DNA of 64,000 nucleotides from Thermopolyspora flexuosa (lineage in GTDB: Bacteria; Actinomycetota; Actinomycetes; Streptosporangiales; Streptosporangiaceae): NCBI RefSeq assembly GCF_006716785.1, contig NZ_VFPQ01000001.1, positions 4,588,001 through 4,652,000 of the forward strand, written 5' to 3'. The notes beneath the pieces were generated by a model. The model was given only the letters and a program-made list of their open reading frames with translations, made no database searches and was not told where the DNA came from. The translations under genes and the position numbers were made by a program. Positions within the stretch are counted from its first letter, which is position 1; each line of letters begins with the position of its first letter. Shown here one piece after another: positions 345 through 52,640 of this stretch.

Positions 345-375
345 CGGCTGTCCTCGAACTCGGCGTACCGGGGCG

Positions 376-1428
376 TCACACCCGGGCCATCCTGGCCCGC
401 CGTACCAGATAGAGGAAGAACGGCCCGCCCAGCACCGCGGTCACGATCCCCACCTGGAGCTCGCCCGGCCGGGCGAGCACGCGGCCGAGCACGTCCGCCA
501 CGAGCAGCAGCACCGGCGCGAGCAGCGCGCAGTACGGCAGCAGCCAGCGCATGTCCGGCCCGGTGAACGGCCGGACCAGGTGCGGCATCATCAGCCCCAC
601 GAACACGATCGGCCCGCAGGCCGCGGTGGCCGCGCCGCACAGCAGGGTCACCGCGAGGATCGCGGCGACCCGGATGCGCGCGGGCCGGGCGCCGAGCGCC
701 CGGGCGGAGTCCTCGCCGAGCGCGAGGGCGTTGAGCGGCGCCGCGAGCAGCAGCGCGACGACCACGCCCGCGGCGATGAACGGCAGCACCCGCAGCACCG
801 TGGTGTGGTGGGCGTCGGCGAGCGACCCGACCGTCCAGAACCGCATCTTCTCCAGCGAGCCGCTGTCGAGCAGCATCGCCGCGCTCACGTACGAGTAGAG
901 GGTGGCGTTGAGCGCGGCCCCGGCGAGCGCGAGCCGGGCCGGGGTGGCCGACCGCCCGCCGCCGACGGCGTACACGAGGGCGGAGACCACCGCCGCGCCG
1001 GCGAGGGCGAACCACACGTACCCGGAGAAGGCCGTCACGCCGAACAGCAGGGTGCCGGTCGCCACCGCGGCCGACGCGCCCGCGTTGATGCCGAGCAGCC
1101 CGGGGTCGGCGAGCGGGTTGCGGGTGAGCGCCTGCATCACCGCGCCCGCGAGCCCCAGCGCGACGCCGGCGAGCAGCCCGAGCAGGGTGCGCGGCAGCCG
1201 CATCTCGTGGACGATCGTGTACGTCTCGGCGCCCTCGTCGACGAGCCCCGCCCAGACCTCGGCGAGCGAGAGCGGCCTTGCCCCGACCCCGATGCTCAGC
1301 GCCAGCACGACGACGAGCACGGCCGCCGCGCCGAGCAGCCCGGCCGCGTGCAGCGCGGCCTTCCTCGCCCGCGCCGGCCGCCGCTCGGTCCGCGCGGTCG
1401 CCGCCGCGGCCGGCATGAAGGTGGACAC
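376..1428 (-). CDS. FecCD-family iron-siderophore ABC permease
   Basis: A 350-residue multi-spanning inner-membrane permease, normal length for the family, for Fe(III)-siderophore import. Visible family motifs are MRLPRTLLGLLAGVALGLAG, ALTRNPLADPGLLGI and the GPIVFVGLMMPHLVRP loop that contacts the ATPase. The GTG start at 1428 is supported by GGAGG five bases upstream; the ATG four codons later has no ribosome site. It is divergent from the substrate-binding lipoprotein gene across a region with two iron boxes, and it leads the permease operon. No ATP-binding subunit is visible in the window; it may lie beyond base 1 or be shared. Confidence 0.95.
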   Translation of the reverse strand: MSTFMPAAAATARTERRPARARKAALHAAGLLGAAAVLVVVLALSIGVGARPLSLAEVWAGLVDEGAETYTIVHEMRLPRTLLGLLAGVALGLAGAVMQALTRNPLADPGLLGINAGASAAVATGTLLFGVTAFSGYVWFALAGAAVVSALVYAVGGGRSATPARLALAGAALNATLYSYVSAAMLLDSGSLEKMRFWTVGSLADAHHTTVLRVLPFIAAGVVVALLLAAPLNALALGEDSARALGARPARIRVAAILAVTLLCGAATAACGPIVFVGLMMPHLVRPFTGPDMRWLLPYCALLAPVLLLVADVLGRVLARPGELQVGIVTAVLGGPFFLYLVRRARMARV

Positions 1429-1490
1429 GTGGGCCTCCGCAGGTGCTAACGGGGTTGTTGGGACAGGAACCCCCCAATGGTGATCCTCAA

Positions 1491-1509
1491 TAAGGTTAGG
1501 CTAGCCTAA
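1491..1509. promoter_or_regulatory. Iron box (IdeR/DmdR operator)
   Basis: The 19-mer taaggttaggctagcctaa matches the actinobacterial DtxR/IdeR consensus TTAGGTTAGGCTAACCTAA at 17 of 19 positions. It contains the perfect palindrome TTAGGCTAGCCTAA. It sits between the divergent permease operon and the binding-protein gene and can control both. Family knowledge says Fe(II)-loaded IdeR/DmdR represses here; the regulator gene is not in the window. Confidence 0.9.
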
Positions 1510-1523
1510 AGGCCGCCGTTTGA

Positions 1524-1542
1524 TTAGGTATGCCTTACCAGA
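1524..1542. promoter_or_regulatory. Second, weaker iron-box-like site
   Basis: The stretch beginning ttaggtatgccttacca matches about 13 of 17 positions of the iron-box consensus. It lies 33 bp from the first box and directly upstream of the binding-protein ribosome site (GAGAGGG, 1541-1547). It is plausibly a second IdeR/DmdR dimer site giving tighter repression of the rightward gene. This is inference from sequence similarity only. Confidence 0.5.
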
Positions 1543-1555
1543 GAGGGTCACTCCC

Positions 1556-2599
1556 ATGGCGCTTGCCCGACGACTGTCCCGGCGTAGCGTGCTGGCCGCG
1601 GGCGGTGTGGCCGCCCTCGGCCTGGTTCTGGCGGCCTGTGGCGCGGGCGACTCGACGACGAGCGGGTCGACGACCGCGTCGAACACGGGGAGCGCCTCGT
1701 CCGGGCCGTGGTCGTTCACCGACGACCGCAACGTGACGGTCAAGCTCGACGCCGCCCCCACGCGGCTGGTCGCCTTCACCGGCGCCGCGGGCGCGCTCGC
1801 CGACTACGGCCTCGGCGACAAGATCGTCGGCGTGTTCGGCGAGACCAAGCGCAAGGACGGCTCGCCGGAGCCGCAGGCCGGCGAGCTCGACGTGAACAAG
1901 GTGACGATCCTCGGCAACGTCTGGGGCGAGTTCGACATCGAGAAGTACGCGAGCCTCCGGCCGGACCTGCTCATCACCCACGAGTTCGAGCCCGGCTCGC
2001 TGTGGTACGTCCCGGACGAGAGCAAGGACAAGATCACCGCCCTGGCCCAGAGCGTGGCGATCAAGACCGGCAAGATCTCCCTGGTCAAGCCGATCGAGCG
2101 GTACGCCGAGCTCGCCAAGGCCCTCGGCGCGGACATGAACTCCCCGAAGGTCACCGAGGCCAAGGCCCGGTTCGACGCCGCGGTGGAGCGGCTGCGCAAG
2201 GCGGCGGCCGAGCACCCCGACATCCGGGTCCTCGCCGCGTCGGCGAGCGCGGACCTGTTCTACGTCTCCTCCCCCAAGACCACGAGCGACCTGATCTACT
2301 TCGCCGAGCTCGGGGTGAACATCGTCGAGCCGGAGAAGGTCGACGACGGCGGCTACTTCGAGAGCCTCAGCTGGGAGAACTCCGACAAGTACGCGGCCGA
2401 CGTGATCATGCTGGACAGCCGCACGATGGCGCTCCAGCCCGACGACCTCAAGGACAAGCCCGCCTGGACGAAGCTGCCCGCGGTGCAGGCCGGTCAGGTC
2501 ATCCCGTGGGACGCCGTGCCGCGGCACTCGTACGCGGGCGTGGCCCCGCTGCTCGAGGCCCTCGCCGAGGCGATCGAGAACGCCAAGAAGCTGAGCTAG
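1556..2599 (+). CDS. Iron-siderophore ABC transporter substrate-binding lipoprotein
   Basis: A 347-residue periplasmic-binding-protein-like lipoprotein. The N-terminus carries a twin-arginine stretch (SRRSVLAAGG) followed by a lipobox LAAC with Cys near residue 28, so Tat export and lipid anchoring are likely. The mature part has the two-lobed FepB/FhuD-type pattern: an RLVAFTGAAGALADYGLG segment near the N-lobe, an LRPDLLI motif in the middle, and a C-lobe ending near PAVQAGQVIPW. I chose the ATG at 1556 because GAGAGGG lies upstream and the signal peptide starts there. It is divergent from its permeases, under iron-box control, and ends 3 bp from the convergent Ddn-like gene. Confidence 0.94.
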   Translation: MALARRLSRRSVLAAGGVAALGLVLAACGAGDSTTSGSTTASNTGSASSGPWSFTDDRNVTVKLDAAPTRLVAFTGAAGALADYGLGDKIVGVFGETKRKDGSPEPQAGELDVNKVTILGNVWGEFDIEKYASLRPDLLITHEFEPGSLWYVPDESKDKITALAQSVAIKTGKISLVKPIERYAELAKALGADMNSPKVTEAKARFDAAVERLRKAAAEHPDIRVLAASASADLFYVSSPKTTSDLIYFAELGVNIVEPEKVDDGGYFESLSWENSDKYAADVIMLDSRTMALQPDDLKDKPAWTKLPAVQAGQVIPWDAVPRHSYAGVAPLLEALAEAIENAKKLS

Positions 2600-2602
2600 C
2601 CG

Positions 2603-3088
2603 TCATCCGTCGCCGTCGCCGGGCAGCACCCGGAACACCGGGTAGCGCCCGGCGATGCGCGCGAACTCGCTCAGCGGGGCCCGCCGCGTCACCGGGAAGT
2701 GCGGGCGGGCCCCGGGCGCGAGCTCGAGGTACCGCCGCAGGATGGGGGCGCGCTCCCCGACCGGGACCTCCACCAGCCGTACGGCACGGCGTCCCCGGCG
2801 GCGCAGCGCCGCGCGTCCCCCGGCGGCCCGCACGTTCCGCACCCAGTTCACGTCCTCGCCGAGCATCGACACCAGGTAGTGGCCGCCCTCGTGGTCGGCG
2901 AGCACCACGGGCGCCTCGATGACGCGGCCGGTACGGCGGCCGCGCACCTCCAGGATCGTCCAGCGCGGCGACGACAGCACCCCGCCGCCGAAGTACACGG
3001 CGGTGAGCCGGTTGAGGAACCGCGCGAGCCGGTTCGGCCGGTTGTTCCGGTACATCCACCGCTTGACGGACGCGGGCGACAACGCCAT
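2603..3088 (-). CDS. Deazaflavin (F420)-dependent nitroreductase family protein (Ddn-like)
   Basis: A 161-residue split beta-barrel protein of the Ddn/FDOR-B type that uses cofactor F420 for reductions. The central VRGRRTGRVIEAPVVLADH block and the VSMLGEDVNWVRNVRAAGG block are the usual F420/substrate-binding signature of this family. Mycobacterial relatives reduce quinones and nitroimidazoles; the substrate here is unknown. It is a single gene, convergent with the siderophore-binding gene (3 bp apart) and upstream of nothing obviously related. The start ATG at 3088 gives the normal family length, with a GGAG-type site just upstream. Confidence 0.88.
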   Translation of the reverse strand: MALSPASVKRWMYRNNRPNRLARFLNRLTAVYFGGGVLSSPRWTILEVRGRRTGRVIEAPVVLADHEGGHYLVSMLGEDVNWVRNVRAAGGRAALRRRGRRAVRLVEVPVGERAPILRRYLELAPGARPHFPVTRRAPLSEFARIAGRYPVFRVLPGDGDG

Positions 3089-3127
3089 CTCTCGCCTCCG
3101 TTTCCCCCAATTCGCCTGCGGGGGACG

Positions 3128-3991
3128 CTATCCGGACCCGCCCTCCGCGCTATTGAACAAATGGGACATCACCGGCAGGTCGGGGGCGGTGCGCCGGAGC
3201 GAGGCGGCGTACTCGCCCGGGGTGCACCGCGCGAACGCCCGGATCTCCCGGCACATGTGGGCCTGGTCCGCGTACCCCGCGGCGGCGGCGAGGCCGGCGG
3301 TGGGCGGCGCGCCGTCGGCGAGAAGGTCGGTCACCCGCTCGAACCGCAGCACGCGCGCGACCGTCTTCGGGCTCAGCCCCACCTGCTCGCGGAACCGCCG
3401 GGCCAGGTGCCGCCTGGTCCAGCCGAGCCGGTCGGCGAGCTCCCCGATCCGGACGTCCCCGCCGGAGGCGGCGAGCCACCGCAGCGCCCGCTCCACCCCG
3501 GGGTCGGGCGCGGGCCCGACGGCGAGCCGCCGTTCGAGGAACGCGGCGAGGATCTCGAAGCGCGCCCGCCAGGTCGGCGCCTCGGCGAGCCGTTCCGGCA
3601 GCAGCGCGCCGTCCCGGCCGAGCACCGCCGCCAGGTCCACGATCGTGTTGCCGAGCTCGTGCATGGGCAGCCCGAGGATCGCGTGGGCCCGCGCCGGGCT
3701 GAGCGACAGCTGCACGCCCCGCTGAATCCCGCGCACCCCGGTCACCGCCATGCGGTCGCGCACCCCGGCGACGAAGCAGGTCAGCGACCGGCCCGCGGCC
3801 CCGTCCGGGGCGTGCACCACCTCGACCGGATCGCCCAGCGCCACGATCACCGTCACCCGGCTGCAGGGGATCTCGCGCCGCCGTACCGTGAAGCCGATCC
3901 GGTCCTGGTAGCCCACGCAGCGGCCGAGCCGGTCGGCGAGCGCGCCCGGCGGCCGCACGCACACCGCCTGGTCGGCTCGGTACCCGCGCAT
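3128..3991 (-). CDS. AraC-family transcriptional regulator
   Basis: A 287-residue regulator. Residues about 185-280 form the two helix-turn-helix AraC domain (ELADRLGWTRRHLARRFREQ, LSPKTVARVLRFERV, AAGYADQAHMCREIRAF, CTPGEYAA). The N-terminal 170 residues are a divergent sensing or dimerisation domain. The ATG at 3991 follows GGGAGGGG; a longer open frame upstream is an artefact of overlap with the methylase gene. It is transcribed in the same direction as the methylase and the Ddn-like gene but separated by gaps. I cannot assign target or ligand. Confidence 0.9.
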   Translation of the reverse strand: MRGYRADQAVCVRPPGALADRLGRCVGYQDRIGFTVRRREIPCSRVTVIVALGDPVEVVHAPDGAAGRSLTCFVAGVRDRMAVTGVRGIQRGVQLSLSPARAHAILGLPMHELGNTIVDLAAVLGRDGALLPERLAEAPTWRARFEILAAFLERRLAVGPAPDPGVERALRWLAASGGDVRIGELADRLGWTRRHLARRFREQVGLSPKTVARVLRFERVTDLLADGAPPTAGLAAAAGYADQAHMCREIRAFARCTPGEYAASLRRTAPDLPVMSHLFNSAEGGSG

Positions 3992-4050
3992 GGCCCCTCC
4001 CGGTCGCTCCGCCTCGCCTTCCATGAGAGCACGGGCGAGCCGGCCGTGCG

Positions 4051-5118
4051 TCAGCGCGCGATGAACAGGTACTCGCAGACCTTGCGCCGCGCCGCGTTGG
4101 CGTGCGTGCCGAACGAGTAGCGGTGGTCGATCGTCCGCACCTCGACGTCGGACTTCACCTGGCGGAGCAGGGCCGCGATCGTCTCCGCGTCGGGCACCGC
4201 GTTCGACGAGTAGGACAGCACGATCGTCGAGTCGCGGAACTTCTCGAAGGTACGGCGCAGCGCGTCGGCGGCGGTGCGCGGATAGGAGAACGGCGTGTAC
4301 CGCTTCTCCAGCTTCTTCGTCCGCGTGCCCTCCATGATCTTCTGGCCGCGCCAGTACGTGGCGAGCCCTTCCAGGAAGTGGTAGCGCTTGATGTAGCAGT
4401 TGTCGTCGCGCGGCGGCGCGTACGGCGGGTCGAGGTAGACCAGGTCGTACGGCTCGGCGGCGAGGTCGAAGACGTCGCCGGTGAGCGACCGGCACCGGCG
4501 GCCGCTGTCGAACACGGCGGCGTTGTACTCGGCGGCCCGTTCCCGGAAGTGGTCGCGCAGCGACAGCCGCAGGTCGCGCCGCCCGTCGTCGTACCGGGCG
4601 CCGGTGACGGTGAACACCCCGCGCGGCTGCTTGCGGGCCGCGGCGAGCACGAGGGCGGAGATGGCGAGCGCGCGCTTGGCGCCGTGCAGCCGGTCGATGT
4701 GGGACCACGCCGAGTCGAGGAACTCCCGGTCGTGGTCGGTGAAGTAGAGCCCGTCGAAGGTGCGCCGGATGAAGTCGCGGTCGTCCGCGGGCGGCCCGCA
4801 GATCCGGTCGATCTCCTCCGGGGTGAGGGTCTCCGACTGGTTCGCCACGGTCGCCCGGGCGATCACGCCGGGGAAGCAGAGGAAGTCGTTGGCGGTGACC
4901 TGGTAGCCGAGCGCCTTGAGCGTGTAGGCGACCACGCCGCTGCCGGAGAAGGCGTCGAGCGCGGTCCGGCCGCCGATCTCGGCGAACACCGCGGCGAGGT
5001 GGGGCGCGAGCCGGTGCTTGGAGCCCATGTAGCGCAGCCGGGGGAACGCCGCCACCCGTGCCACCACGGGCAGCAGGTCCACGCCGTGCCCGGCCCCGTG
5101 CACCGCTCCGGCCGTCAC
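4051..5118 (-). CDS. D12-class N6-adenine DNA methyltransferase
   Basis: A protein of about 355 residues that transfers a methyl group from SAM to adenine in DNA. SAM-binding motif I is DAFSGSG with the preceding RYMGSKHRL, and catalytic motif IV is DPPYAPP. This is the alpha-class (Dam/M.EcoRV-like) order. It has an internal target-recognition region of about 120 residues. No restriction endonuclease lies beside it, so it is an orphan methylase or part of a decayed system. Several GTG codons could be the start; I chose 5118 because GAAGGGA precedes it, but a start nearer RYMGSK would also keep the whole fold. Confidence 0.88.
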   Translation of the reverse strand: MTAGAVHGAGHGVDLLPVVARVAAFPRLRYMGSKHRLAPHLAAVFAEIGGRTALDAFSGSGVVAYTLKALGYQVTANDFLCFPGVIARATVANQSETLTPEEIDRICGPPADDRDFIRRTFDGLYFTDHDREFLDSAWSHIDRLHGAKRALAISALVLAAARKQPRGVFTVTGARYDDGRRDLRLSLRDHFRERAAEYNAAVFDSGRRCRSLTGDVFDLAAEPYDLVYLDPPYAPPRDDNCYIKRYHFLEGLATYWRGQKIMEGTRTKKLEKRYTPFSYPRTAADALRRTFEKFRDSTIVLSYSSNAVPDAETIAALLRQVKSDVEVRTIDHRYSFGTHANAARRKVCEYLFIAR

Positions 5119-5293
5119 CCTCCTGTCCCTTCCCCCCAGGACCGCGGGCCCGGTCTCCGATCCTCGCACAGGCGTGTGCCGTCCGCGGAGAACTCGGCCT
5201 GTCCGGTACGGGACACCCGCGGCGGGCGCACGGGCCGGTGGCCGGGTGCGCCCGCCGGGCCGCCGCGCCGTGCCCGGGACCGGCGCGCGGGGC

Positions 5294-5605
5294 TCAGACG
5301 ACGGTGGTCACCGTGCCGACCAGGGTGGTCGCCCCCGCCTGGGCGAAGTTGGCGAGGTCGGCGACGGCCTTCTGGCCCTCCTCGCTCGCCAGCGCGGCCT
5401 GGGCGGCGGCCTCGTCGTCGAAGGTGAGGGTGGCGATCAGGTGGTACGGCGGCTTCTCGTCGCCGCGGGCGACCGGGCGGATGACGGTGTACCCGCGCAG
5501 GCCGGGGAGCTTGGCCGCGAGCGGGGCGTGCACGTTGTCGTAGTGGGCGTCGAACGCCGCCGGGTCCTCCGGGTGGTTGTAGAGAACGGTCATCTGGTAG
5601 GCCAC
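5294..5605 (-). CDS. EthD-domain protein
   Basis: A 103-residue ferredoxin-like (dimeric alpha/beta barrel) protein of the EthD family. The MTVLYNHPEDPAAFDAHY opening and the LPGLRGYTVIRPVARG block are characteristic. Family members occur in ether, polyketide or aromatic degradation and in oxidative reactions, but most are uncharacterised. The GTG at 5605 is chosen because GGAGG stands six bases before it and it gives the canonical length. It appears to be monocistronic, with about 160 bp to the MerR gene behind it. Confidence 0.85.
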   Translation of the reverse strand: MAYQMTVLYNHPEDPAAFDAHYDNVHAPLAAKLPGLRGYTVIRPVARGDEKPPYHLIATLTFDDEAAAQAALASEEGQKAVADLANFAQAGATTLVGTVTTVV

Positions 5606-5767
5606 TTCGATCCTCCGCATCGTGCCTGCGGCGAGTCCCGCGGATCGGGTCAGCCGCGACGATGCACTGACCATCCCACCCATTTCGGACAAACGAAAGA
5701 CCCTTTCGGAAGAGCGGAAACGGCGTTTCCGCCCCGCCGGGCCGGCGCGTCCTCGGCGGGGGTACGG

Positions 5768-6109
5768 CTACCGCGCCTTGGCGGCCCCTTCGCCGCGGCC
5801 TTCCAGGGTCGCGAGGCGGCTGCGCGCCTCCTCCAGCTCGGCGCGCAGCGTGCGCAGCTCCTCCTCCAGCTCGAGGATGCGCCGGATGGCGACGAGGGTC
5901 ATGCCCTCGGAGGCGAGTTCGGTGACGTACTGGACCAGGGTGATGTCACGGCGGGAGTAGCGGCGCTGCCCTCCCGCCGACCGCTGCGGGCAGACGACGC
6001 GGTGCTCGTCGAGCCGGCGCAGGAACGCCTGCTGGACGTTGAGCATGGAGGCGACCTGGCCCAGGGAATACAGCGGGGCGTGTTCGTCGTCGATCGGCAG
6101 CCGGGTCAT
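5768..6109 (-). CDS. MerR-family regulator, HspR-like
   Basis: A 113-residue regulator with an N-terminal winged helix (YSLGQVASMLNVQQAFLRRL, then QRRYSRRDITLVQYV) and a C-terminal coiled coil of about 30 residues (LELEEELRTLRAELEEARS). It lacks the metal-binding Cys of classical MerR and most resembles HspR-type heat-shock regulators. The start ATG at 6109 is preceded by GGAGGACCG. It is co-oriented with and downstream of an hsp20 gene, from which it is separated by a hairpin, so it may control that gene; this is inference. Confidence 0.82.
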   Translation of the reverse strand: MTRLPIDDEHAPLYSLGQVASMLNVQQAFLRRLDEHRVVCPQRSAGGQRRYSRRDITLVQYVTELASEGMTLVAIRRILELEEELRTLRAELEEARSRLATLEGRGEGAAKAR

Positions 6110-6291
6110 CGGTCCTCCCCTCTCCTCCCCGACGGGAATCCATTGTGCGGTGGCGCTCCCCCGGGCGCGGATGTCCCCCGGCCGTACGCCGGCACGCCCC
6201 GGTGACCCGGCTCGCCGCCGGGCGGCCCGCCGGTTCCGTGCCCGGGAACGGCGCCGGAATGTGCCGAACGCGATGTGCCCGAACGCAGGAA

Positions 6292-6313
6292 GGGCCGGTG
6301 CGCACACCGGCCC
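6292..6313 (-). terminator. Hairpin terminator downstream of hsp20
   Basis: A perfect stem GGGCCGGTG / CACCGGCCC with a 4-base loop starts about 20 bp beyond the hsp20 stop codon. There is no T-run, as is usual for high-GC actinobacterial terminators. Confidence 0.6.
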
Positions 6314-6335
6314 CGCCCCTGCCTTCCGTCCTGCG

Positions 6336-6785
6336 TCACGCGCCGATCGCCTTGGCGTCGCCCTTCCGGATCTCGATCTTCCGCGGCCGCGCCTTCTCCA
6401 CCACGGGGATCCGCACGGTCAGCACGCCGTTGGCGTACGCGGCCTCGATGTGCTCGGCGTCGAGGTGCTCGGGCAGGTAGACGCGGCGGGTGAACTCGCC
6501 CATCACGCGCTCGCGGACGAACGGACGCGCGTCGTCGGTGAACTCCTCGTCGCGGCGGGCGGTGACGCTGAGCACCCCGCGGTCGACGGTGACCTCGATC
6601 GAGTCGGGGTCGATGCCGGGCAGGTCGAAGCGGAGCAGGACGTCGTCGTCGCGCCGGACGCCGTCCATCGGCATGATCCTGGCCTCGTCCTGGATCCAGC
6701 CGAACGCCTGCCGGGTCAGCCGGTCGAACTGGCGCTCGAACTCCTGCACGAACGGGTCGATGGTCGTCAGCAGCATCTTCCTCAA
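6336..6785 (-). CDS. Hsp20/alpha-crystallin small heat-shock protein
   Basis: A 149-residue cytoplasmic holdase chaperone. The alpha-crystallin domain spans about residues 45-140: LRFDLPGIDPDSIEVTVDRG, then GVLTVRIPV near the end with the family's GVL and I-x-V features. The N-terminal arm is short and aromatic (FERQFDRLTRQAFGW). Its promoter is embedded in a 10-bp inverted repeat (6835-6873), so it is probably tightly repressed until stress. A second hsp20 with different sequence starts at 33,257. Confidence 0.95.
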   Translation of the reverse strand: MRKMLLTTIDPFVQEFERQFDRLTRQAFGWIQDEARIMPMDGVRRDDDVLLRFDLPGIDPDSIEVTVDRGVLSVTARRDEEFTDDARPFVRERVMGEFTRRVYLPEHLDAEHIEAAYANGVLTVRIPVVEKARPRKIEIRKGDAKAIGA

Positions 6786-6834
6786 CCCCCTTTGGAGCTT
6801 TTCCTACGTTCCACTTTGAGGAAACCTCTAACTT

Positions 6835-6873
6835 CACTTGCATGTTAGCTCTATGTCCATATGCATGCAAGTG
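6835..6873 (-). promoter_or_regulatory. Hsp20 promoter inside a perfect inverted repeat
   Basis: The arms CACTTGCATG (6835-6844) and CATGCAAGTG (6864-6873) are a perfect 10-bp inverted repeat. Reading the minus strand, TTGCAT (6870-6865) and TAACAT (6847-6842) form -35 and -10 hexamers with exactly 17 bp between them, so each operator arm overlaps one promoter element. A repressor dimer or looped tetramer would block the polymerase. The repeat is not the HAIR consensus (CTTGAGT-N7-ACTCAAG), so another regulator, perhaps the MerR protein at 5768, may bind. Confidence 0.75.
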
Positions 6874-7027
6874 TCTGCCGCGGGAGAAAATCCCGGGCTC
6901 CGTCCCTGCGTCCGCCCAGCTCGTACGGCCGGCATCGGGCGGCCACGCCGCATCGTCACGGCCATTCGGCCGGCGGCGGCCGAGACGGCCCGGGCGGGGC
7001 TTCGGCCCGGCGAGGCCGGTCGCACGG

Positions 7028-7056
7028 CGGCCCGCCGCGGTCGCCACGGCGGGCCG
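7028..7056 (-). terminator. GC hairpin downstream of the histidine kinase gene
   Basis: Perfect 10-bp arms CGGCCCGCCG and CGGCGGGCCG with a 9-base loop begin about 28 bp past the kinase stop codon. It probably ends transcription of that gene. Confidence 0.55.
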
Positions 7057-7083
7057 TACCGGAAGGTGTGTGGGATCGCGCGG

Positions 7084-8238
7084 TCAGCGGAGCGGGACCC
7101 GCCACTCCAGCCGGGTGCCGCCGCCCGGGCGATCGGCGATGGTGAAGGAGCCGCCGAGGAATTCGGCGCGCTCGCGCATGTTCGTCAGGCCGCTGCTGCG
7201 CGCCGGGCGGCCCAGGCCGCGGCCGTTGTCGGCCACCTCGAGCACGAGCGCGTCGCCGGTGGTGAGCGTCACCGACACGGCCGTGGCGTCGGCGTGCCGG
7301 GCGACGTTGGACAGCGCCTCGCGGAGCACCGCGAGCAGGTGCGCCGCGACCCGCTCCGGCACCGTGCTGTCGATCGGCCCGTCGAAGGTCACGGCCGGCG
7401 CGTAGCCGAGGTGGCCGGCCGCGTCCGCGGTGAGCCGGAGGATCCGCGCGCGCAGGCTGGCCGCCTCGCGGGGCGCGGTGTGCAGGTCGAAGATCGCGAT
7501 GCGCAGCTCGCGGATCGTGGCGTCGAGCTCGGCGACCACGTCCTGCAGCCGGGCCACCACCCGCGGATCCCGCACCATGCCCGCGGTCGCCTGCAGCGCG
7601 AGGCCCGCGGCGAACACCCGCTGCACCACCATGTCGTGCAGGTCGCGGGCGATGCGCTCACGGTCGGCCAGCACCTCGCGCTCGGCCCGGGCCGCGGCGA
7701 GCTCGGCCTCCATGCGCAGCCGCTCGGACAGGTCCCGGGCCACCGCGGAGAACCCGGTGAGCGCGCCGCCCGGGCCGCGCATCGCCGACACGGTGACGGC
7801 CACGTCCACCGGCGAGCCGTCCCGGCGGCGCAGCCGCCCGTCGAAGTGGCCCGCCCGGCCGCCGCGGCGCAGCCGTTCCAGCACCGCGCCGAAGCGGCCG
7901 CGCGCCTCCGCGGGCACGAGCACGTCCACCGGCCGGTTCACGATCTCCGCCGCGGCGTGGCCGAACAGCCGCTCCGCCCCCGGGTTCCAGGTCTGCACCA
8001 GGCCCTCCGGGGTGATCGCGAACATCGCGTCGTCGGAGGACTGCACGATCGCGGCAAGCCGGGCCTCGGACCGCCGGGCCTGCTCCAGTTCGGCGTAGAG
8101 GGCGGAAAGGCCCCGGTCGGTCTCCTCCAGCTCGGCCTGGAGCGTGGCGATCGTCCGGCGATCGCTCTCGAGCGCCGCCTCCCGCCGGGCGAGCGCCTCC
8201 AGCACCTCGGCGAGCCGGGGGTGATTCGCGCGCGTCAC
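7084..8238 (-). CDS. PAS-domain sensor histidine kinase (NarL/DevS type)
   Basis: A 384-residue soluble kinase. Residues about 10-60 are a coiled coil; residues 60-185 are a PAS domain (IVQSSDDAMFAITPEG, TWNPGAERLFGH). Next comes a HisKA_3 dimerisation domain with the phospho-acceptor in ERIARDLHDMVVQRVF, and a HATPase domain with the N-box LREALSNVARHA and DNGRG. There is no transmembrane segment, so the signal is intracellular or PAS-bound. No response regulator gene lies within 5 kb, so it is an orphan. The GTG start at 8238 follows a GGGAG-containing region. Confidence 0.92.
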   Translation of the reverse strand: MTRANHPRLAEVLEALARREAALESDRRTIATLQAELEETDRGLSALYAELEQARRSEARLAAIVQSSDDAMFAITPEGLVQTWNPGAERLFGHAAAEIVNRPVDVLVPAEARGRFGAVLERLRRGGRAGHFDGRLRRRDGSPVDVAVTVSAMRGPGGALTGFSAVARDLSERLRMEAELAAARAEREVLADRERIARDLHDMVVQRVFAAGLALQATAGMVRDPRVVARLQDVVAELDATIRELRIAIFDLHTAPREAASLRARILRLTADAAGHLGYAPAVTFDGPIDSTVPERVAAHLLAVLREALSNVARHADATAVSVTLTTGDALVLEVADNGRGLGRPARSSGLTNMRERAEFLGGSFTIADRPGGGTRLEWRVPLR

Positions 8239-44600: not shown

Positions 44601-44818
44601 GGAGGCCGTGTTTCTCCGGCGGCGCGGCCTTCGGGCCCTGTCGTGTGCGACGGCGCGGTGATCGCTGGGAAGGTGTCCTGCGGTGACGGGTGGCGTGTGC
44701 CAGGCGGGAGGACACGATGACCGATGCGCCGGACGGCGGCACGGCGGCCGGACCACGCTGACGGGCGCTCGCCGACGTGACGGCCGCCTTCCCCAAGCTC
44801 AGCCGGATCGGCTTCCCC
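44601..44818 (+). pseudogene. Duplicated, truncated copy of the chrA 5' region
   Basis: This stretch matches 44819-45035 with a 217-bp period, including the ribosome site GGGAGGACACG and the start codon. The copy encodes MTDAPDGGTAAGPR and then a TGA (44717-44761), and its continuation toward the membrane segment has drifted. It is a tandem duplication whose upstream copy is now non-functional, although it could still be a short upstream ORF affecting chrA. Confidence 0.75.
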
Positions 44819-44933
44819 GGAAGCCGTGTTCTGCGGCGGCGCCGCCTGCGGGCCCCTTTCCGCGCGACGATGCGTTGATCGCAGGGGAAGGTGTCCTGCG
44901 GGACGGGTGGCGTGTGCCAGGCGGGAGGACACG

Positions 44934-46562
44934 ATGACCGATGCGCCGGACGGCGGCACGGCGGCCGGGCCGCGGTGGCGGGTGCTCGCCGAGGTGGCGG
45001 CCGTCTTCCTCAAGCTGGGCCTGATCGGCTTCGGCGGTCCGGCCGCCCACATGGCGCTCATGCGCGACGAGCTGGTACGGCGCCGCGGCTGGGTGAGCGA
45101 CCAGCGCTTCCTCGACCTGATGGGCGCGGTCAACTTCATCCCCGGCCCGAACTCGACCGAGCTCGCCATCCATCTCGGCCACGACCGCGCCCGCTCGCGC
45201 GGCCTCATCGTGGCCGGGGTCTGCTTCATCCTCCCGGCCTTCGCGATCGTCACCGCCCTCGCCTGGGCGTACGTCCGCTACGGCACCACCCCAGCCGTGG
45301 CCGGCCTGCTCTACGCCGTCAAGCCCGTGGTCGTGGCCATCGTCGTCTGGGCGATCGCCGGCCTCCTGCGGACCGCTGTGAAAGACCGCATGACCGGCGT
45401 GGCCGCCGCGGCGGGCCTCGCCGCCTACCTGCTCGGCGTGAACGAGCTGGCCGTACTCGCCGCCGGCGGCCTCCTCGTCACCGCCGTCCGCACCCGCGCC
45501 TCCTGGCTCCCCGGCCGGCTCGGCCGCGGTTCCGGCACCGGCCTCGGAAGCGGGCGTGGCCGGTCGAGCCGGTCGGCCGATGCCGGCCCCGGCGAGGATG
45601 ACGGCGACCAGGACGCACCCTCGGGTGACCGCACACGCGGCGCGAGCGCCCGGACCACCGGCGGCGACAGGCGCGAGGCAGGCACAAGCCACCGTCACAC
45701 GGACGAGACCACCCGAGACTCCGGCCAAAAAGACTCCGGCACCGACGAGAACAGCCGCCATACGGACGGCCACGGCGGCAGTGCCACCGCGAACGACCGT
45801 GACCCGAGCGGGAGTGATCGGGACACCGGCGAGGGCCGGGAGGCCCGCCCGAGCCATCACGACACGAACGCGACCGGCGAAGACGGCCCCGACGGGAACG
45901 GCCGCCGTACGAACGGAAACGGCGGCGGCACCGACGCGAACGACCACGATCCGGACGGGAGCCCACCGGGCGCCACCGGCGGCCTCCCCGCGCTCCTGGC
46001 CCCGCTCGCCGCCCCGTACTTCCCCGACCCCACCGGCGGCCAGCTCGCCCAGCTCTTCCTGACCTTCTTGAAGATCGGCGCCGTCCTGTACGGCAGCGGC
46101 TACGTCCTTCTCGCCTTCCTCGAAGGCGACCTCGTCGAGCGCCTCGGGTGGATCACCAACACCCAGCTCCTCGACGCCGTCTCCATCGGCCAGGTCACCC
46201 CGGGCCCCGTCTTCACCACCGCCACCTTCATCGGCTACCTGGTCATGGGCCTCCCCGGCGCCGTCCTCGCCACCATCGCCATCTTCCTGCCGTCCTTCGT
46301 CTTCGTCGGCCTCCTCACCCGCATCATCGACGTCATCCGCAACCGCACCTGGTCCGCCGCCTTCCTCGACGGCGTCAACGCCACCGCCCTCGCCCTCATG
46401 ACCGGCGTCACCCTCCACCTGGCCCGCGACGCCTTGGTCGACCCCCTCACCGTCGCGCTCGCTGTCCTCGCCCTCCTCCTTCAATGGCGCACCCGCCTCA
46501 ACACCGCCTGGCTCATCGGCGCCGCCGCCGCCCTCGGCGCGGTCCGCGCCCTCATTCTCTGA
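44934..46562 (+). CDS. chrA: Chromate-transporter family protein (ChrA) with an extended linker
   Basis: A 542-residue CHR-family membrane protein. Each half has the family signature: FLKLGLIGFGGPAAHMALM with FIPGPNSTELA in the first (about 20-190), and FLKIGAVLYGSGYVLLAFLEG with QVTPGPVFTTATFIGYL in the second (about 370-540). CHR proteins export chromate by proton exchange in known cases; many homologues have no tested substrate. Residues about 195-350 are a hydrophilic Asp/Gly/Thr/His/Asn-rich linker of about 150 residues, making this far longer than the usual 400. The ATG at 44934 follows GGGAGGACACG. Confidence 0.9.
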   Translation: MTDAPDGGTAAGPRWRVLAEVAAVFLKLGLIGFGGPAAHMALMRDELVRRRGWVSDQRFLDLMGAVNFIPGPNSTELAIHLGHDRARSRGLIVAGVCFILPAFAIVTALAWAYVRYGTTPAVAGLLYAVKPVVVAIVVWAIAGLLRTAVKDRMTGVAAAAGLAAYLLGVNELAVLAAGGLLVTAVRTRASWLPGRLGRGSGTGLGSGRGRSSRSADAGPGEDDGDQDAPSGDRTRGASARTTGGDRREAGTSHRHTDETTRDSGQKDSGTDENSRHTDGHGGSATANDRDPSGSDRDTGEGREARPSHHDTNATGEDGPDGNGRRTNGNGGGTDANDHDPDGSPPGATGGLPALLAPLAAPYFPDPTGGQLAQLFLTFLKIGAVLYGSGYVLLAFLEGDLVERLGWITNTQLLDAVSIGQVTPGPVFTTATFIGYLVMGLPGAVLATIAIFLPSFVFVGLLTRIIDVIRNRTWSAAFLDGVNATALALMTGVTLHLARDALVDPLTVALAVLALLLQWRTRLNTAWLIGAAAALGAVRALIL

Positions 46563-46589
46563 CCCTTCCAGTACACGGCCAGGCTTTTC

Positions 46590-46608
46590 GTTCATCACAA
46601 TGATGAAC
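46590..46608. promoter_or_regulatory. Inverted repeat at the left edge of the low-GC island
   Basis: GTTCATCA-CAA-TGATGAAC has perfect 8-bp arms and a 3-bp loop, 28 bp after the chrA stop and 150 bp before the mCpol gene. It may be the chrA terminator or an operator of the defence operon. The GC content drops immediately after it. Confidence 0.5.
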
Positions 46609-46757
46609 AAACTCGCCGGCCCTGTCGGCCCACAGACTTACTCGTTAAAATCCGTTCGACCACCCTCGCCGCCTCCGCTCGTCGACTACTGCCACCTCAC
46701 GAGCCGAAACCCGATCCACCCGAGACTCTTCCACCTTTCATCGAGACAGAAGCGAGC

Positions 46758-47165
46758 GTGACGCAGATGAACGATGAACCCGACAACGAACCGTCTGGCC
46801 ACGACACCTTTGCGTACTTTGACGGTGATGACATCGGGCCGAGGTTGGAGCTACTGCTACTGGACAACAAGATAGAGGAGGCCCGCCAATACAGCTTGTC
46901 AATCAATCAAGCCCTGACCCAGGCCCGCACATTACTAGAGGACATCCACCCGGTAGAAGTCATTATTTTCGGCGGGGATGATCTATTCGTTTCCTGGCCG
47001 GACGACAAAGTCGCGCTATCAGATATCGAAAACGTGAAACGAGTATTTCTTGAGATGACCGGCAACACCATGAGCGTCGGATTGGGCCGGTCACCGAAGG
47101 AGGCCATGCACAACCTTCGCCGCGCGAAGTTACTCGGCAAAGACAAGATCGTTCAACCGTTGTGA
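46758..47165 (+). CDS. Minimal CRISPR polymerase (mCpol) nucleotide cyclase
   Basis: A 135-residue stand-alone palm domain related to the Cas10 polymerase/GGDEF fold. The first metal motif is FAYFDGDDIG (about residues 21-30) and the second is VIIFGGDDLFVSW (about 73-85), so both catalytic Asp sets are intact. A basic helical end (MHNLRRAKLLGKDKIV) completes the domain. No HD, Zn-finger or regulatory domain is attached. It likely makes a cyclic (oligo)nucleotide second messenger. The GTG at 46758 is a possible start, the ATG at 46767 an alternative. The stop is 1 nt before the ATG of the CARF-like effector, so they are coupled. Confidence 0.85.
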   Translation: MTQMNDEPDNEPSGHDTFAYFDGDDIGPRLELLLLDNKIEEARQYSLSINQALTQARTLLEDIHPVEVIIFGGDDLFVSWPDDKVALSDIENVKRVFLEMTGNTMSVGLGRSPKEAMHNLRRAKLLGKDKIVQPL

Positions 47166-47166
47166 G

Positions 47167-47508
47167 ATGTTCAACGCAGTAAAGCAGCACCCTGACGAGC
47201 TGTACATATTCGTCACCTCGGAGCGTCCGGATCCTTATGTCAATGTTCTCGCCCTTCTCTTACCCGACAGCCACATATCCGCGGTGCACCTTGTTGCGAT
47301 CAAGGAGCATGAGTATGCAGGCGAGCAGCTTGAAGGGCGATTAGGATCGATCACATCGCGAATCCATGATCGACTTGAGGATCTCTCCCGTCGATGCGCC
47401 CAAGAGAACCCCTACTGGTCCGCTCGATATACCGCAACGTTGAATAAACTGGACTCGATCGGTACCCGAAACGATGTGATCAATGGCCGGACCTCGACGA
47501 CAGGCTAA
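47167..47508 (+). CDS. CARF-like effector, N-terminal part (frame broken)
   Basis: A 113-residue product starting 1 nt after mCpol. It opens with a Rossmann-like strand-helix pattern (ELYIFVTSERPDPYVNVLALLLPDSH, then ISAVHLVAIKEHEYAGEQL), the first half of a CARF-type nucleotide-sensing domain. The frame stops at TAA 47506. Reading the other frames, a helical stretch WPDLDDRLREIVAKG follows from 47484 and then FFDVTTLKKHLLVE from 47536, so the gene looks like one CARF protein with two net -1 frame changes. Either the sequence has two missing bases, the gene is decaying, or two separate proteins are made. Confidence 0.7.
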   Translation: MFNAVKQHPDELYIFVTSERPDPYVNVLALLLPDSHISAVHLVAIKEHEYAGEQLEGRLGSITSRIHDRLEDLSRRCAQENPYWSARYTATLNKLDSIGTRNDVINGRTSTTG

Positions 47509-47920
47509 GAGAGATCGTTGCAAAGGGGTCGCTTTTTTCGATGTCACCACACTTAAAAAGCACCTACTCGTCGAGGTGGTGGCGATCCTCCTCTCCCGAG
47601 GATGCACTCGCGTTCATAGTTTCGACCTCATCAAAGCGCCTACGCATGACGAGCGGGATCTAATCCATAACCTCAAGCCGAGCGTTTTCGCCTACCGGAC
47701 GCTCAGCCAGAGCCGCCACATCGCGAATGCGCAAAAGCGAATGCTGGCCCGATCCCTCACCTTAAAAACACTACTGCTCATCACCGGACTGGTAGCCGCG
47801 CTCGTCCTCTTGGTCGAAATACTATTCGATGAGACATGGCTGGACCAGGCAATCCTCACCATAGGAACCATTACGACGATCGGCGGCTTCTTCTCCCTAT
47901 TACTTCGCGAGAACCACTGA
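47483..47920 (+). CDS. CARF-like/two-transmembrane effector, C-terminal part
   Basis: A 145-residue product overlapping the previous ORF in another frame. Its start region (GPRRQAKRDRCKG) reads poorly. From FFDVTTLKKHLLVEVVAILL it is a convincing second half of a CARF domain, with DVTTLKK at the position of the CARF nucleotide-contacting DxTGGxK-type segment, then CTRVHSFDLIK. It ends in two membrane helices (about 92-113 and 118-141: TLLLITGLVAALVLLVEIL; AILTIGTITTIGGFFSLLL). A two-helix membrane effector would kill or arrest the cell when the nucleotide signal changes. Confidence 0.7.
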   Translation: MAGPRRQAKRDRCKGVAFFDVTTLKKHLLVEVVAILLSRGCTRVHSFDLIKAPTHDERDLIHNLKPSVFAYRTLSQSRHIANAQKRMLARSLTLKTLLLITGLVAALVLLVEILFDETWLDQAILTIGTITTIGGFFSLLLRENH

Positions 47921-48026
47921 CGTCAGACGAGATCCTTTGCCGTCCGTGTTCCACCCTCGGAACCCTCTCCGCTCTCCCGAGAACGGCCATGATCCGTGTG
48001 ATGAGCGTCGCCCTCTGCTCATAAGG

Positions 48027-48048
48027 CCCCGCACCGCTACGTGCGGGG
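48027..48048. terminator. Hairpin terminator right of the mCpol operon
   Basis: CCCCGCAC (48027-48034) and GTGCGGGG (48041-48048) pair perfectly around CGCTAC. It lies 107 bp after the effector stop and marks the right boundary where GC returns to the genomic level. The 320 bp between the operon and the acyl-CoA dehydrogenase gene contain no gene. Confidence 0.6.
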
Positions 48049-48239
48049 CAGCTGCCTGAACGTGTCAACAGGCCGTCCTCCGGCCGCCTGCCCATCACGT
48101 TTCGCGCACACACCAGCGGGCGTCGAACAGCACCCGCCGCCCCGCGCCCTCGGCTCGGGCTCGTATGGCCGTAGCCGCGACACGCCACGCGTCACTGGCT
48201 CGCCTAGGCCGGGCCGTACGAGCCCGCGGCCGGGGGCGG

Positions 48240-50408
48240 TCAGACGAGCGGGTCGCGGGGGAGGCCGAGGATGCGTTCGGCGATCAGGTTGCGCTGGATC
48301 TCGGAGGTGCCCCAGGCGACGGACATGATGCGGCTGCGGAGGGTCTGCAGGGCCGCGGCGGCGCCGGGGCCGTCGGTGAAGGCGGCCTCGGCACCGGCGA
48401 GGTCGGCGAGGAGGGCGGCGGTCTCGTGGTTGTGTTCGGCGAGGATGAGCTTGGTGACGCTGCCCTGGGGGCCCGGCGGTGCGGCGGTGATGGCGCGGCG
48501 CAGGTTGAGGAGGGACAGGGCGTGGCGTTCGGCCAGGTGGCGGCCGATGCGGGCCGCCCCGCCGGGGATGCGCTCGCCGTAGCTGAGGAGCCGGTCGCGG
48601 GTGTAGGCGTCGGTGATCTCGAAGGGGTCGCCCGCGCCGACGGCGACGCGTTCGTCGGCGAGGGTCTCGCGGGCGATGGGCCAGCCGCGGCCGGGCTCGC
48701 CGACGACGTCGGCGTCGGGGACGAACACGTCGGTGAGGAAGACCTCGTTGAACTCGGCGTCGCCGGTGATCCGGCGGATCGGGCGCACCTCGACGCCGGG
48801 GGCCGCCAGGTCGATGATCATCAGGGTGATGCCGTCGTGTTTCGGCGCGTCCGGGTGGGTGCGGACGGTGGCGAGGGCGCGGCGGCTGCGGTGGGCACCG
48901 CTCGTCCACACCTTCTGGCCGTTGACCAGCCAGCCGCCCGCGGTGCGCACGGCCCGGGTGCGGACACCGGCCGCGTCGGAACCGGCCTCGGGCTCGCTGA
49001 ACATCTGGCACCAGGTCTCCTCGCCGAGCAGGGCGGGCCGCAGGTAGCGGTCGAGCTGGTCCCGGGTGCCGTGCCGGATCAGCGCCTGCATGATCCAGCC
49101 GGTGAGGCCGAGCCGCGGCCGGGTCACGCCAGCGGCGGCGAGCTCCTCGTCGATGACCCGCTGCAGGCCGGCGCTCGCCGCCAGGCCGTACGGCCGGGGC
49201 CACTGCGGCTGCAGGTACCCGGTCTCGGCGAGCCTGCGGCGCCGCTCGGCGGCGGGCAGGGCGGCGATCTCGCGGGCGGTGGCCCGTATCTCGGCGCGGG
49301 CCGCCTCGGCCTCGGGCGGGATGTCGGGTGCGGCTTCGCGGCACACGCCCTTGGCGCCGAGCCGTACCACGTCCTCGGCGGCGGCGTGCGCGGGGAAGAC
49401 GGCCGCGAGGGTGGCGGCCCGGCGCAGCAGCAGGTGGGCGTCGTGCTCCCAGGTGAGGCCGATCGCCCCGTGGACCTGGATGTTGAGCTGGGCGTTGCGG
49501 GCGAAGGCGGGTACGGCGAGCGCGAGGGCCACGGCGGCGGCGAGCTCGAACCGGTCCTGCGGGCCGGCGGCGGCGCGGGCCGCGTCCCACACCGCGGCGG
49601 CGGCCGACTCGGCGGCCACGTGCATGTCGGCGCAGTGGTGCTTGACCGCCTGGAAGGACCCGATGGCCCGGGCGAACTGGGTGCGGGTCTTGGCGTACCC
49701 GACGGCCATGTCGGTGCACTCGGCGGCGCCGCCCACGGCCTCGGCCGCGACCAGGGTGCGGGCGATCGCCTCGGCGCGGGGGCGGCCGCCGCGGATCAGG
49801 TCGTCCTCGGTGACGGGTACGGCGTGCAGGCGGACCCGGGCGGAACGGCGGGCGGGGTCGAGGTTCGGCGGGGTCTCCACGGTCACGCCGGGGCGGCCCC
49901 GGTCGAGGATCACCAGGTCGTCGCCGACGGCGAGGACGAGCAGCCGGGCCGGTCCGGCGCCCAGGACCACGCCGACGTCGCCGGTGACCACGCCGTGCCC
50001 GGCGTCCGGCTCCGCGGCGAGGGTGAGCGAGCCGGACAGGCCGAGCGCCGCAGGGGTCTCTCCGGCGGCCAGGCCGGGCAGGTGCGCGGCCCGCTGGGCC
50101 GCGGTGCCGCAGTCGGCGATCACCGCCGATGCGATCATCGTGGGCAGGAACGGGCCGGGCGCCACCGCCCTGCCGAGCTCCTCGGCGACCACGACGAGCT
50201 CGGGGAGGCCGTGACCGCCCCCGCCGTACTCCTCCGGCAGGTGCAGGCCGATCAGGCCGAGGTCGGCGAACTCGGCCCAGAACTCCGGCGGCCGTTCCTC
50301 GGCGGCCTCCAGGAGGGCGCGTGACGCGGCGCGCGCCTGCCTCGCGCGCAGAAACGAACGGATCATCGAGGCCAGTTCGCGGTGTTCTTCGCTGATGGCG
50401 ACGGCCAT
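48240..50408 (-). CDS. Fused two-domain acyl-CoA dehydrogenase
   Basis: A 722-residue protein made of two acyl-CoA dehydrogenase modules. The N-terminal module (about 1-365) has LPEEYGGGGHGLPELVVVAEELG and the FAD-domain ARAIGSFQAVKHHCADM. The C-terminal module (about 370-722) has CQMFSEPEAGSDAAGVRTRA, VNGQKVWTSGA and the terminal VAWGTSEIQRNLIAERILGLP. Actinobacterial steroid and branched-chain catabolism uses heteromeric pairs of such proteins; here both halves are joined. GGAGGAGCC precedes the ATG at 50408. It stands alone with no beta-oxidation neighbours, so the substrate is unknown. Confidence 0.92.
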   Translation of the reverse strand: MAVAISEEHRELASMIRSFLRARQARAASRALLEAAEERPPEFWAEFADLGLIGLHLPEEYGGGGHGLPELVVVAEELGRAVAPGPFLPTMIASAVIADCGTAAQRAAHLPGLAAGETPAALGLSGSLTLAAEPDAGHGVVTGDVGVVLGAGPARLLVLAVGDDLVILDRGRPGVTVETPPNLDPARRSARVRLHAVPVTEDDLIRGGRPRAEAIARTLVAAEAVGGAAECTDMAVGYAKTRTQFARAIGSFQAVKHHCADMHVAAESAAAAVWDAARAAAGPQDRFELAAAVALALAVPAFARNAQLNIQVHGAIGLTWEHDAHLLLRRAATLAAVFPAHAAAEDVVRLGAKGVCREAAPDIPPEAEAARAEIRATAREIAALPAAERRRRLAETGYLQPQWPRPYGLAASAGLQRVIDEELAAAGVTRPRLGLTGWIMQALIRHGTRDQLDRYLRPALLGEETWCQMFSEPEAGSDAAGVRTRAVRTAGGWLVNGQKVWTSGAHRSRRALATVRTHPDAPKHDGITLMIIDLAAPGVEVRPIRRITGDAEFNEVFLTDVFVPDADVVGEPGRGWPIARETLADERVAVGAGDPFEITDAYTRDRLLSYGERIPGGAARIGRHLAERHALSLLNLRRAITAAPPGPQGSVTKLILAEHNHETAALLADLAGAEAAFTDGPGAAAALQTLRSRIMSVAWGTSEIQRNLIAERILGLPRDPLV

Positions 50409-50825
50409 GGCTCCTCCGGATAGGTACACGCGCCTTCATTTGTGTACCGATCCCGCCCGCCGTGAATAGAGACTTATGGCCCTTGAAATAACACGCTGCG
50501 TAGCCATTGCGGGAAAAGCCGTGACCAATTACGTGGATCACGGCGATCCCTAATTCGCCGTCGCACGATACAGCCGGCGTCGGCGCCGGTCGGCCGCCTC
50601 GCCGTCGACCCGATGGTGCGGCGCCGAGCCGAACCGCCGTCCGGGACCCCGGCCCGGCTCCGCCCGGCTCAGGAAGGAACGGCGCAGCAGCCGCGATGCG
50701 GTGGCCGTACAAGCTCAAAGGTTCGACACCGCAGAACACGAATTGCCGCGACGGTCCCGGAGCCGAACCTCTTCACCGTAAGTTGAATTACAGCGGATTC
50801 CGGTATGCCCCAAAGTGGGGGAATC
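50409..50825. other. Divergent intergenic region
   Basis: About 417 bp between the leftward dehydrogenase and the rightward methyltransferase. It is less GC-rich around 50440-50560, which probably holds the promoters. No coding frame is convincing. Confidence 0.5.
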
Positions 50826-51341
50826 ATGAAAAAGACACGTGCGGCCATCGGAAGCGCCGCCTTCTTCATCGCCGCCCCCGGCACGGTGACCGTCCTGATC
50901 CCATGGCTGATCACTGACTGGGAGAGCCGCGACCTGCTGCCCGAAACGCTCTCCTGGGCGACGCCCGTGCTCCGGGCCGCCGGAATCGCGCTCATCCTGG
51001 CGGGCTCCGCCGTGGTGATCAACGCGTTCGTGCGGTTCGTGGTGAACGGCCTGGGCACGCCCGCGCCCGTCGCGCCACCCGAGCACCTGGTGGTGACCGG
51101 CCTCTACCGGCACGTGCGGAATCCCATGTACGTGGGCGTGCTGGCCGTGATCATCGGCGAGGCCCTGCTACTCGGCCGGTGGGAGCTGCTGGTGTACGCC
51201 GCCATCGCGTTCGCCTGCATGTACACCTTCGTCCGCGGCTACGAGGAGCCGCAGCTGCGCAGGCAGTTCGGGCAGGAGTACGAGACCTACCGCGCGGCCG
51301 TACCGGGATGGTGGCCGCGCCTGCGCCCCTGGCGACCGTGA
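50826..51341 (+). CDS. ICMT/PEMT-family membrane methyltransferase
   Basis: A 171-residue membrane protein. The conserved SAM-binding region is VVTGLYRHVRNPMYVGVLAVIIGEAL, then YEEPQLRRQFGQEYETYRAAVP, typical of isoprenylcysteine carboxyl methyltransferase-like and phospholipid methyltransferase proteins. About four hydrophobic segments are visible. The bacterial substrate is generally unknown. The ATG at 50826 follows GGGGGAATC. A decayed P450 gene follows. Confidence 0.88.
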   Translation: MKKTRAAIGSAAFFIAAPGTVTVLIPWLITDWESRDLLPETLSWATPVLRAAGIALILAGSAVVINAFVRFVVNGLGTPAPVAPPEHLVVTGLYRHVRNPMYVGVLAVIIGEALLLGRWELLVYAAIAFACMYTFVRGYEEPQLRRQFGQEYETYRAAVPGWWPRLRPWRP

Positions 51342-51499
51342 CGCCGACCGTATTCCGTGCTGTACAGGTCACACCGCCACCTCAGATGCCACCCTCCACC
51401 GGTCTCCCCATCGGCAATTGACTGGTCGGCGATTCGGCTCCGAACCCCTCCTCCTCCCCTCGCCTCCCAACCGGAACCCGGATCCGTGCCACCACGTTC

Positions 51500-51815
51500 T
51501 GGAGCTCGGCCGCTACGAAGAGTTGCCCGGCATGCGGACGTGCTTGCCGCCCTCCGGCCGCCGGCCGTGTTCCCCTCGTTCTCCTCGGCCGCCCGGCCGG
51601 CCCCGGGACGGGGCGCCGGCAGGAGAGCGGACGGGTAACCGGTGCGGTCACTGCTCTTACTCGACCCGCCGGAGCATCAGGTGCCGCGGCGGGTGGTGGC
51701 GCGGGGGTTCACGCCGCAGGCGGTGCCGTGGCTCGAGCCTGCGGTACGGGACTTCGCCACCGGTGATGACGCGGGCGCCGTGGCGGAACTCGTGTCGGGC
51801 CCGGCCGTACCGCGC
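51500..51815 (+). pseudogene. Cytochrome P450 fragment
   Basis: In one frame, VARHADVLAALRPPAVF and then, after an in-frame TAA at 51636, LLLLDPPEHQVPRRVVARGF and TPQAVPWLEPAVRDFA match the N-terminal third of actinobacterial P450s (helix B to C region). The remaining two-thirds, including the haem-binding Cys loop, is missing. It is therefore a remnant, truncated by or before the neighbouring leftward pseudogene. Confidence 0.7.
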
Positions 51816-51878
51816 TCGGCGACACAGACTCCGGTCCGCCCCCACCGGTCGCTTCACCCCGGAGGCCGCTCGCGCGGG

Positions 51879-52640
51879 TCAGGCGCCCACGCCGGACAGC
51901 CGCGGCCGGCGGGCCAGCCAGACCGCCAGGGCGAGCAGCGACGCGCGCACCCGGGCATCCACAGGCTGGTACCGGCCGGTACGGCACCGCGGGCCGGGCA
52001 GCCGGCCGAACAGCCAGACCTGCCGCTCCCGCCGTCGTGCTGAAGGCGGGCGACCGCCAGATCGCGACGACCACGCCCGCGCTCGTCGCCGGCAGGGCGC
52101 GTCCGAGCCGGCCGGCGACGACCGCGGCCAGCCCGGTCGCCGCGCCCACCGCCACGAGGACGCCCGAGGCCACCAGCGCGAGCACGAGGTCGATCCCGAG
52201 CACGCGCGCGAGCCCGGTGGCGAACGCCATGGCGGGCGAGACCGGCATCGCCGACAGCGGCTCCAGGCGCGGATCGGACCGGTGCGAGCACGCCGCCACC
52301 GCGCCGAGCAGCAGCACGACCGGCACCACCGCACTGAACAGCTGCACGACCGCCCCCACGGTCGGCGCGACGCGGGCGAGCAGCACCGCCACGGCGAGGC
52401 CCGCCGCGGTCAGCGGGCCGATGGACCAGGGCATGAGCCGCGCCTGCGCCACCACCCGGCCGCCGGCCGCCAGGACGCCCGGAACGAAGGACGGGGCACG
52501 GATCGCGCGCGGCCTGCGGCGATCTCCGGCAGCCCGCTCAGCAGCTCGTCGTAGGACGGCACCACGACCGGCCCGAGCAGTCGCTCGTCGGCCTCCCGGA
52601 CCCCGGCCGTCAGGGCGTCCTGCGCCTCATCGTTCACCAC
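51879..52640 (-). pseudogene. Membrane protein gene with frame breaks, coupled to the ECF sigma gene
   Basis: The gene opens with a GTG at 52640 that overlaps the sigma stop: MVNDEAQDALTAGVREADER and VVPSYDELLSGLPEIAAG in frame one. A second frame (52455 leftward) continues with four to five membrane helices (VVQLFSAVVPVVLLLGAVAA; IDLVLALVASGVLVAVGAA). A third frame supplies a natural end (RASLLALAVWLARRPRLSGVGA). Two frame changes near 52490 and 52020 are needed. By position it could be an anti-sigma factor, but no zinc-finger motif is visible. Confidence 0.6.

Follow-up and report, generated by a model that had tools for sequence, protein, structure and literature searches.

Described mCpol systems and the locus studied here

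In the Panoptes system, a minimal CRISPR polymerase (mCpol) constitutively makes cyclic dinucleotides that keep a membrane effector switched off until phage sponges or nucleases free it (PMC12657218, PMC12657230). Predicted operons with a 2TM-CARF gene account for 40% of mCpol genes, and whether the nucleotide inhibits or activates these CARF-2TM partners was left open (Sullivan et al. 2025, PMC12657218). Other partner types named in that study include those of two genomes described below (G224 and G226). Cam1 and Cap1, membrane effectors of type III CRISPR, are activated by cA4 (PMC10808066, PMC12642688). In the literature searched, we came across no report that a CARF-2TM member had been assayed.

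We analysed a 64,000-nucleotide stretch of Thermopolyspora flexuosa DNA (the window) that contains an mCpol/CARF-2TM locus. Its gene order, mCpol followed by a CARF-plus-two-helix gene, is that of the mCpol/2TM-CARF operons of Sullivan et al. and of PADLOC PDLC01992 (CARF_m9--CARF_TM), and both profiles match. The locus is a real member of this published class and is new as an instance only. The initial annotation had implied that the pairing itself was novel; it is not, because such operons had already been described and, as predictions, make up the share of mCpol loci given above (PMC12657218). The relatives examined have the effector as one open reading frame (ORF); in the window its frame is broken twice.

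The locus resembles Panoptes OptS/OptE (Klebsiella, Vibrio navarrensis, and E. coli ECOR31) in its small stand-alone mCpol, in the fold and metal aspartates of that protein, and in the adjacent two-helix membrane effector. However, the OptE sensor is a beta-barrel (S-2TMbeta) domain, whereas that of the window's effector is predicted to be CARF: the adjacent gene matches the CARF-TM profile, not the S-2TMbeta (Cap15-like) effector that marks Panoptes. A profile search of the window's genome, run without a positive control, gave no match to the Cap15-type domain PF18153. Cam1 and Cap1 likewise join a CARF or CARF-like sensor to membrane helices, but they are Cas10- and cA4-driven and ligand-activated. 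No Cas10 match apart from the mCpol itself was found in the window's genome; G058 is the one CARF-2TM genome, of those tested, that showed a separate Cas10-type match. The window's bacterial family also includes a CARF-HEPN-mCpol fusion (in G226) and an mCpol with 2TM-SAVED (in G224), but these have another effector or sensor than the window's pair. None of the eight mCpol genomes tested yielded a CBASS cyclase. Thus, the CBASS-guarding role of Panoptes is not obviously transferable, and what mCpol/CARF-2TM pairs guard may be different, or may be missed by these models.

The cyclase is a stand-alone mCpol

The cyclase gene (46758..47165, forward strand) is intact, starts with GTG, and encodes 135 amino acids. 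In a profile search the protein matched the Pfam mCpol family PF18182 (E = 2.1e-23; score 83.3 bits, cut-off 26.4). The match to NCBIfam NF033576 also exceeded the cut-off of that model, and the match to the Cas10 palm model was weaker than that to Pfam mCpol. The profile search placed the palm domain on its own, with no second domain. Both metal motifs reported in the initial annotation, FDGDDIG and GGDDL, were found in this ORF. DGDDIG occupies residues 22-27 (46821..46838, forward strand), with D22, G23, D24, and G27 invariant in seven mCpols, and GGDDL occupies residues 72-76 (46971..46985, forward strand), with G73 and D74 invariant in seven. The spaced pair of motifs occurs once in the 64-kb window and in none of 60 Markov-simulated 64-kb sequences.

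The mCpol was modelled with a pLDDT of 89.5, and GGDDL is located at the tip of a predicted hairpin (residues 67-72/75-81). The OptS structures 9pd0, 9mnr, and 9nwn were the top PDB matches of the model (TM by target, 0.86-0.89; rmsd, 1.3-1.7), ahead of GGDEF and Cas10 structures. Profile match and model together support the earlier assignment as an mCpol, and the predicted fold is of the OptS/Cas10-palm kind. A GGDEF or other housekeeping fold was ruled out, as the fit to OptS was better than that to every GGDEF structure. In a gap-free stretch of the sequence alignment, D22, S46, and N50 of the window mCpol pair with D6, S30, and N34 of OptS, residues reported to hold metal or contact the adenine base. 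These alignments hint at an adenine-containing product; position 50 is S, not N, in close relatives of the window mCpol.

mCpol and CARF-2TM genes occur together

A census of 343 genomes of the family found the effector model in 6 and the mCpol model above cut-off in 8. All six effector genomes were among the eight with mCpol, and the two genes were adjacent every time. The sample of effectors is small, some of the genomes are related to each other, and the broken form accounts for two of the six (the window's genome and G738). In this small effector sample, no orphan effector, lacking an mCpol, was found among the 343 genomes. The co-occurrence on which the initial annotation had staked its proposal is therefore strict in the family. 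Of the two remaining mCpols of the family, one has a SAVED-type partner whose N terminus contains hydrophobic segments (G224) and the other is part of a CARF-HEPN-mCpol fusion (G226); these other partner loci lie at L009 1471-2989 and L010 391-1902, respectively.

Beyond the family, the intact pair is present in Streptomyces sedi (L024) and on a mobilizable Nostoc plasmid, NZ_CP151107.1 (L026). Among 396 other genomes sampled from the phylum we found no full-length second effector, and one weak partial match lay inside a long SMC-like ORF. An intact, one-frame effector directly follows the mCpol gene in five actinobacterial relatives and on the one Nostoc plasmid; intact examples include Acrocarpospora macrocephala, Actinomadura flavalba, and Streptomyces sedi. 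Near the pair in Streptomyces sedi are a gene for an RHS-repeat protein with a TreTu toxin C terminus (L024 5154-9479) and a gene for a NERD-UvrD helicase similar to helicases of defence systems (L024 1912-4002).

The intact Acrocarpospora effector gave a model of moderate quality (pLDDT 75). Its top PDB matches were CARF proteins (the ring nuclease Sso2081, Cad1, and Can2), with modest scores, consistent with a CARF fold in this relative of the window effector. A sequence search of the PDB with the intact effector returned no meaningful match. The intact relatives support the earlier reading of the effector as a CARF-type sensor that carries two helices at its C terminus.

The effector frame is broken in two places

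The effector ATG begins 1 base past the mCpol stop. The N-terminal part of the effector (47167..47508, forward strand, frame 1, 113 aa) matches PADLOC PDLC01992 over positions 3-78 (5.8e-16), and the C-terminal part (47483..47920, forward strand, frame 2, a 145-aa ORF) matches it over positions 95-217 (2.8e-30). The first third and the second half of this profile are thereby matched in different frames. The 145-aa ORF includes an FDVTTLKK motif (about 47537-47560, forward strand) and is the only one of the two to contain the predicted membrane helices (about 47771-47827 and 47849-47905, forward strand; hydropathy peaks at residues 97 and 123).

When the Actinomadura flavalba effector was aligned to the window by tblastn, its residues 5-101, 110-124, and 124-253 matched as three successive pieces, each in a different frame. 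Three pieces in three frames mean that the effector frame is broken twice. The middle piece, WPDLDDRLREIVAKG (about 47484..47528, forward strand, third frame), aligned to residues 110-124 of the relative, WPDLDRKLTDLMSTG; it is in frame with neither effector ORF and so marks both breaks, at about 47481-47484 and about 47525-47545. Residues of the 113-aa part past about 47481 are out of frame. Both pieces are otherwise open, and for this reason the broken effector may have some residual function.

The initial annotation described, one base past the mCpol stop, the start of a single CARF-like sensor that closes with a pair of membrane helices. The position of the ATG is confirmed, and every part of the sensor and both helices can be recognised by profile and hydropathy. 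The parts are spread over three frames, however, and not in a single gene, and the frame is broken in two assemblies. The window effector has probably decayed in this lineage.

Control logic and state of the system

Our reading, which we judge slightly better than even, is that the locus is a horizontally acquired, Panoptes-like mCpol/CARF-2TM anti-phage operon, inhibitory when intact, with its effector broken and the system inactive in the window's lineage. In an intact pair, the stand-alone mCpol would most likely produce, at all times, a cyclic di- or oligonucleotide that contains adenine. The CARF-2TM effector would sit in the inner membrane, read this nucleotide, and be harmless while the nucleotide is bound. 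A phage protein that depletes the nucleotide would then cause the effector to assemble, damage the membrane, and stop infection. In the window's lineage, where two breaks close to each other interrupt the effector frame and the cyclase gene is whole, the cyclase would most likely be left without a receptor and the system inactive.

Comparative evidence leans weakly toward inhibition of the Panoptes kind for mCpol/CARF-2TM pairs. We prefer this sign because the mCpol comes without a sensing part, because every effector found has an adjacent cyclase, and because the sole damaged operon kept the cyclase and lost the effector, not the reverse; OptS provides the precedent (PMC12657218, PMC12657230). 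The window copy is a natural case of effector loss with the cyclase kept, an order that an inhibitory, toxin-antitoxin-like design would allow.

The same gene pair could follow a positive logic, in which infection triggers the mCpol to synthesise its nucleotide (possibly a cyclic oligoadenylate), and CARF binding opens a membrane pore, as with Cam1 and Cap1; the window copy would then be a broken member of such a system. We consider this possible, though on the unlikely side. The CARF proteins that best match the fold of the intact relative's effector include several solved with cA4, the ligand that activates the membrane effectors Cam1 and Cap1, and the published survey allows either sign for CARF-2TM (PMC12657218). 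Yet no part for sensing infection is recognisable in the mCpol, in contrast to Cas10 within an RNA-guided complex, and OptS, its closest solved relative, is constitutive and inhibitory. The lack of orphan effectors, within the small sample, also speaks for inhibition. More broadly, it is possible but unlikely that mCpol/CARF-2TM pairs have a sign opposite to that of Panoptes, with the nucleotide opening a membrane pore, or that the window's lineage uses a CARF effector split into two proteins next to its stand-alone mCpol; in both cases mCpol systems would have a form of control that has yet to be demonstrated for them. For the question of inhibitor or activator, the intact pairs of the actinobacterial relatives and of Nostoc are ready test cases.

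Taken by itself, a functional split effector is improbable. Here the 113-aa N-terminal part and the 145-aa C-terminal part with its helices would cooperate as two proteins, or the ribosome would shift frame twice. Such an arrangement is consistent with two open ORFs, the second with an ATG (47483) inside the first, and with their unchanged frames in a second assembly. It would, however, leave the piece between the ORFs, recognisable in the relative (WPDLD...), in the third frame and absent from both proteins, and the relatives have one continuous effector ORF. Inspection by eye showed neither a clear ribosome site ahead of 47483 nor a convincing slippery sequence where the frame first breaks.

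The second assembly is QGUZ01000253.1 (L025), a Streptosporangiaceae metagenome-assembled genome (MAG) contig from thermophilic composting, assembled with metaSPAdes (PMC8434746). Its positions 1-7352 are 99.81% identical to window positions 44902-52254, with 14 differences over 7.35 kb, and it is identical to the window across both frame breaks. Each break has the look of a change in a single base, one break adjoins a run of Ts, and both lie within about 60 bases, but sequencing or assembly errors in an effector that is intact in the living strain are very unlikely, and we rejected assembly error as the cause, because this separately assembled contig has both breaks unchanged despite its 14 other differences. 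The genome in which the contig is filed (G738) belongs to another species of the same genus and is 87-95% identical to the window in another test stretch. Given this difference in identity, the contig appears either to come from a strain of the window's species through mis-binning or to reflect a recent exchange.

Foreign composition and possible mobility

The block holding both genes (46758..47920, forward strand) is compositionally foreign, with a third-codon GC of 0.61-0.68 against about 0.9 or more in its main neighbours. The genes on either side of the block encode a chromate transporter and an acyl-CoA dehydrogenase. Across the actinobacterial loci examined, third-codon GC was about 0.53-0.65 for the effector and about 0.9 for the best neighbouring genes; which genes surround the pair varies between genomes. 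The mCpol/CARF-2TM pair was probably acquired horizontally. As for signs of integration, the window contains no tRNA, and no clear repeat flanks the pair. A 136-base direct repeat, 90% identical, lies at 44685-44820 and 44902-45037, in the region where the chromate transporter gene begins.

In phage and plasmid records, the window mCpol had no phage match and the pair was found on one plasmid, that of Nostoc; neither the window mCpol nor the effector matched PHROGs. On the Nostoc plasmid, genes for a VapC toxin and an integrase flank the intact pair (L026 4438-6969), and this setting on a mobilizable plasmid suggests that the pair is mobile.

The mCpol domain also occurs on IMG/VR contigs (L027 4944-7190, L028 4531-5736, L029 2481-3977, and L030 409-1425), and no relative of the window effector was found on these viral contigs. 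There the domain forms the N terminus of proteins of 338-748 aa (Pfam, 1.9e-11 to 2.7e-19). The genes stand beside apparent phage structural genes, with no adjoining CARF-2TM gene, and a phage-carried mCpol could serve in counter-defence or in something else.
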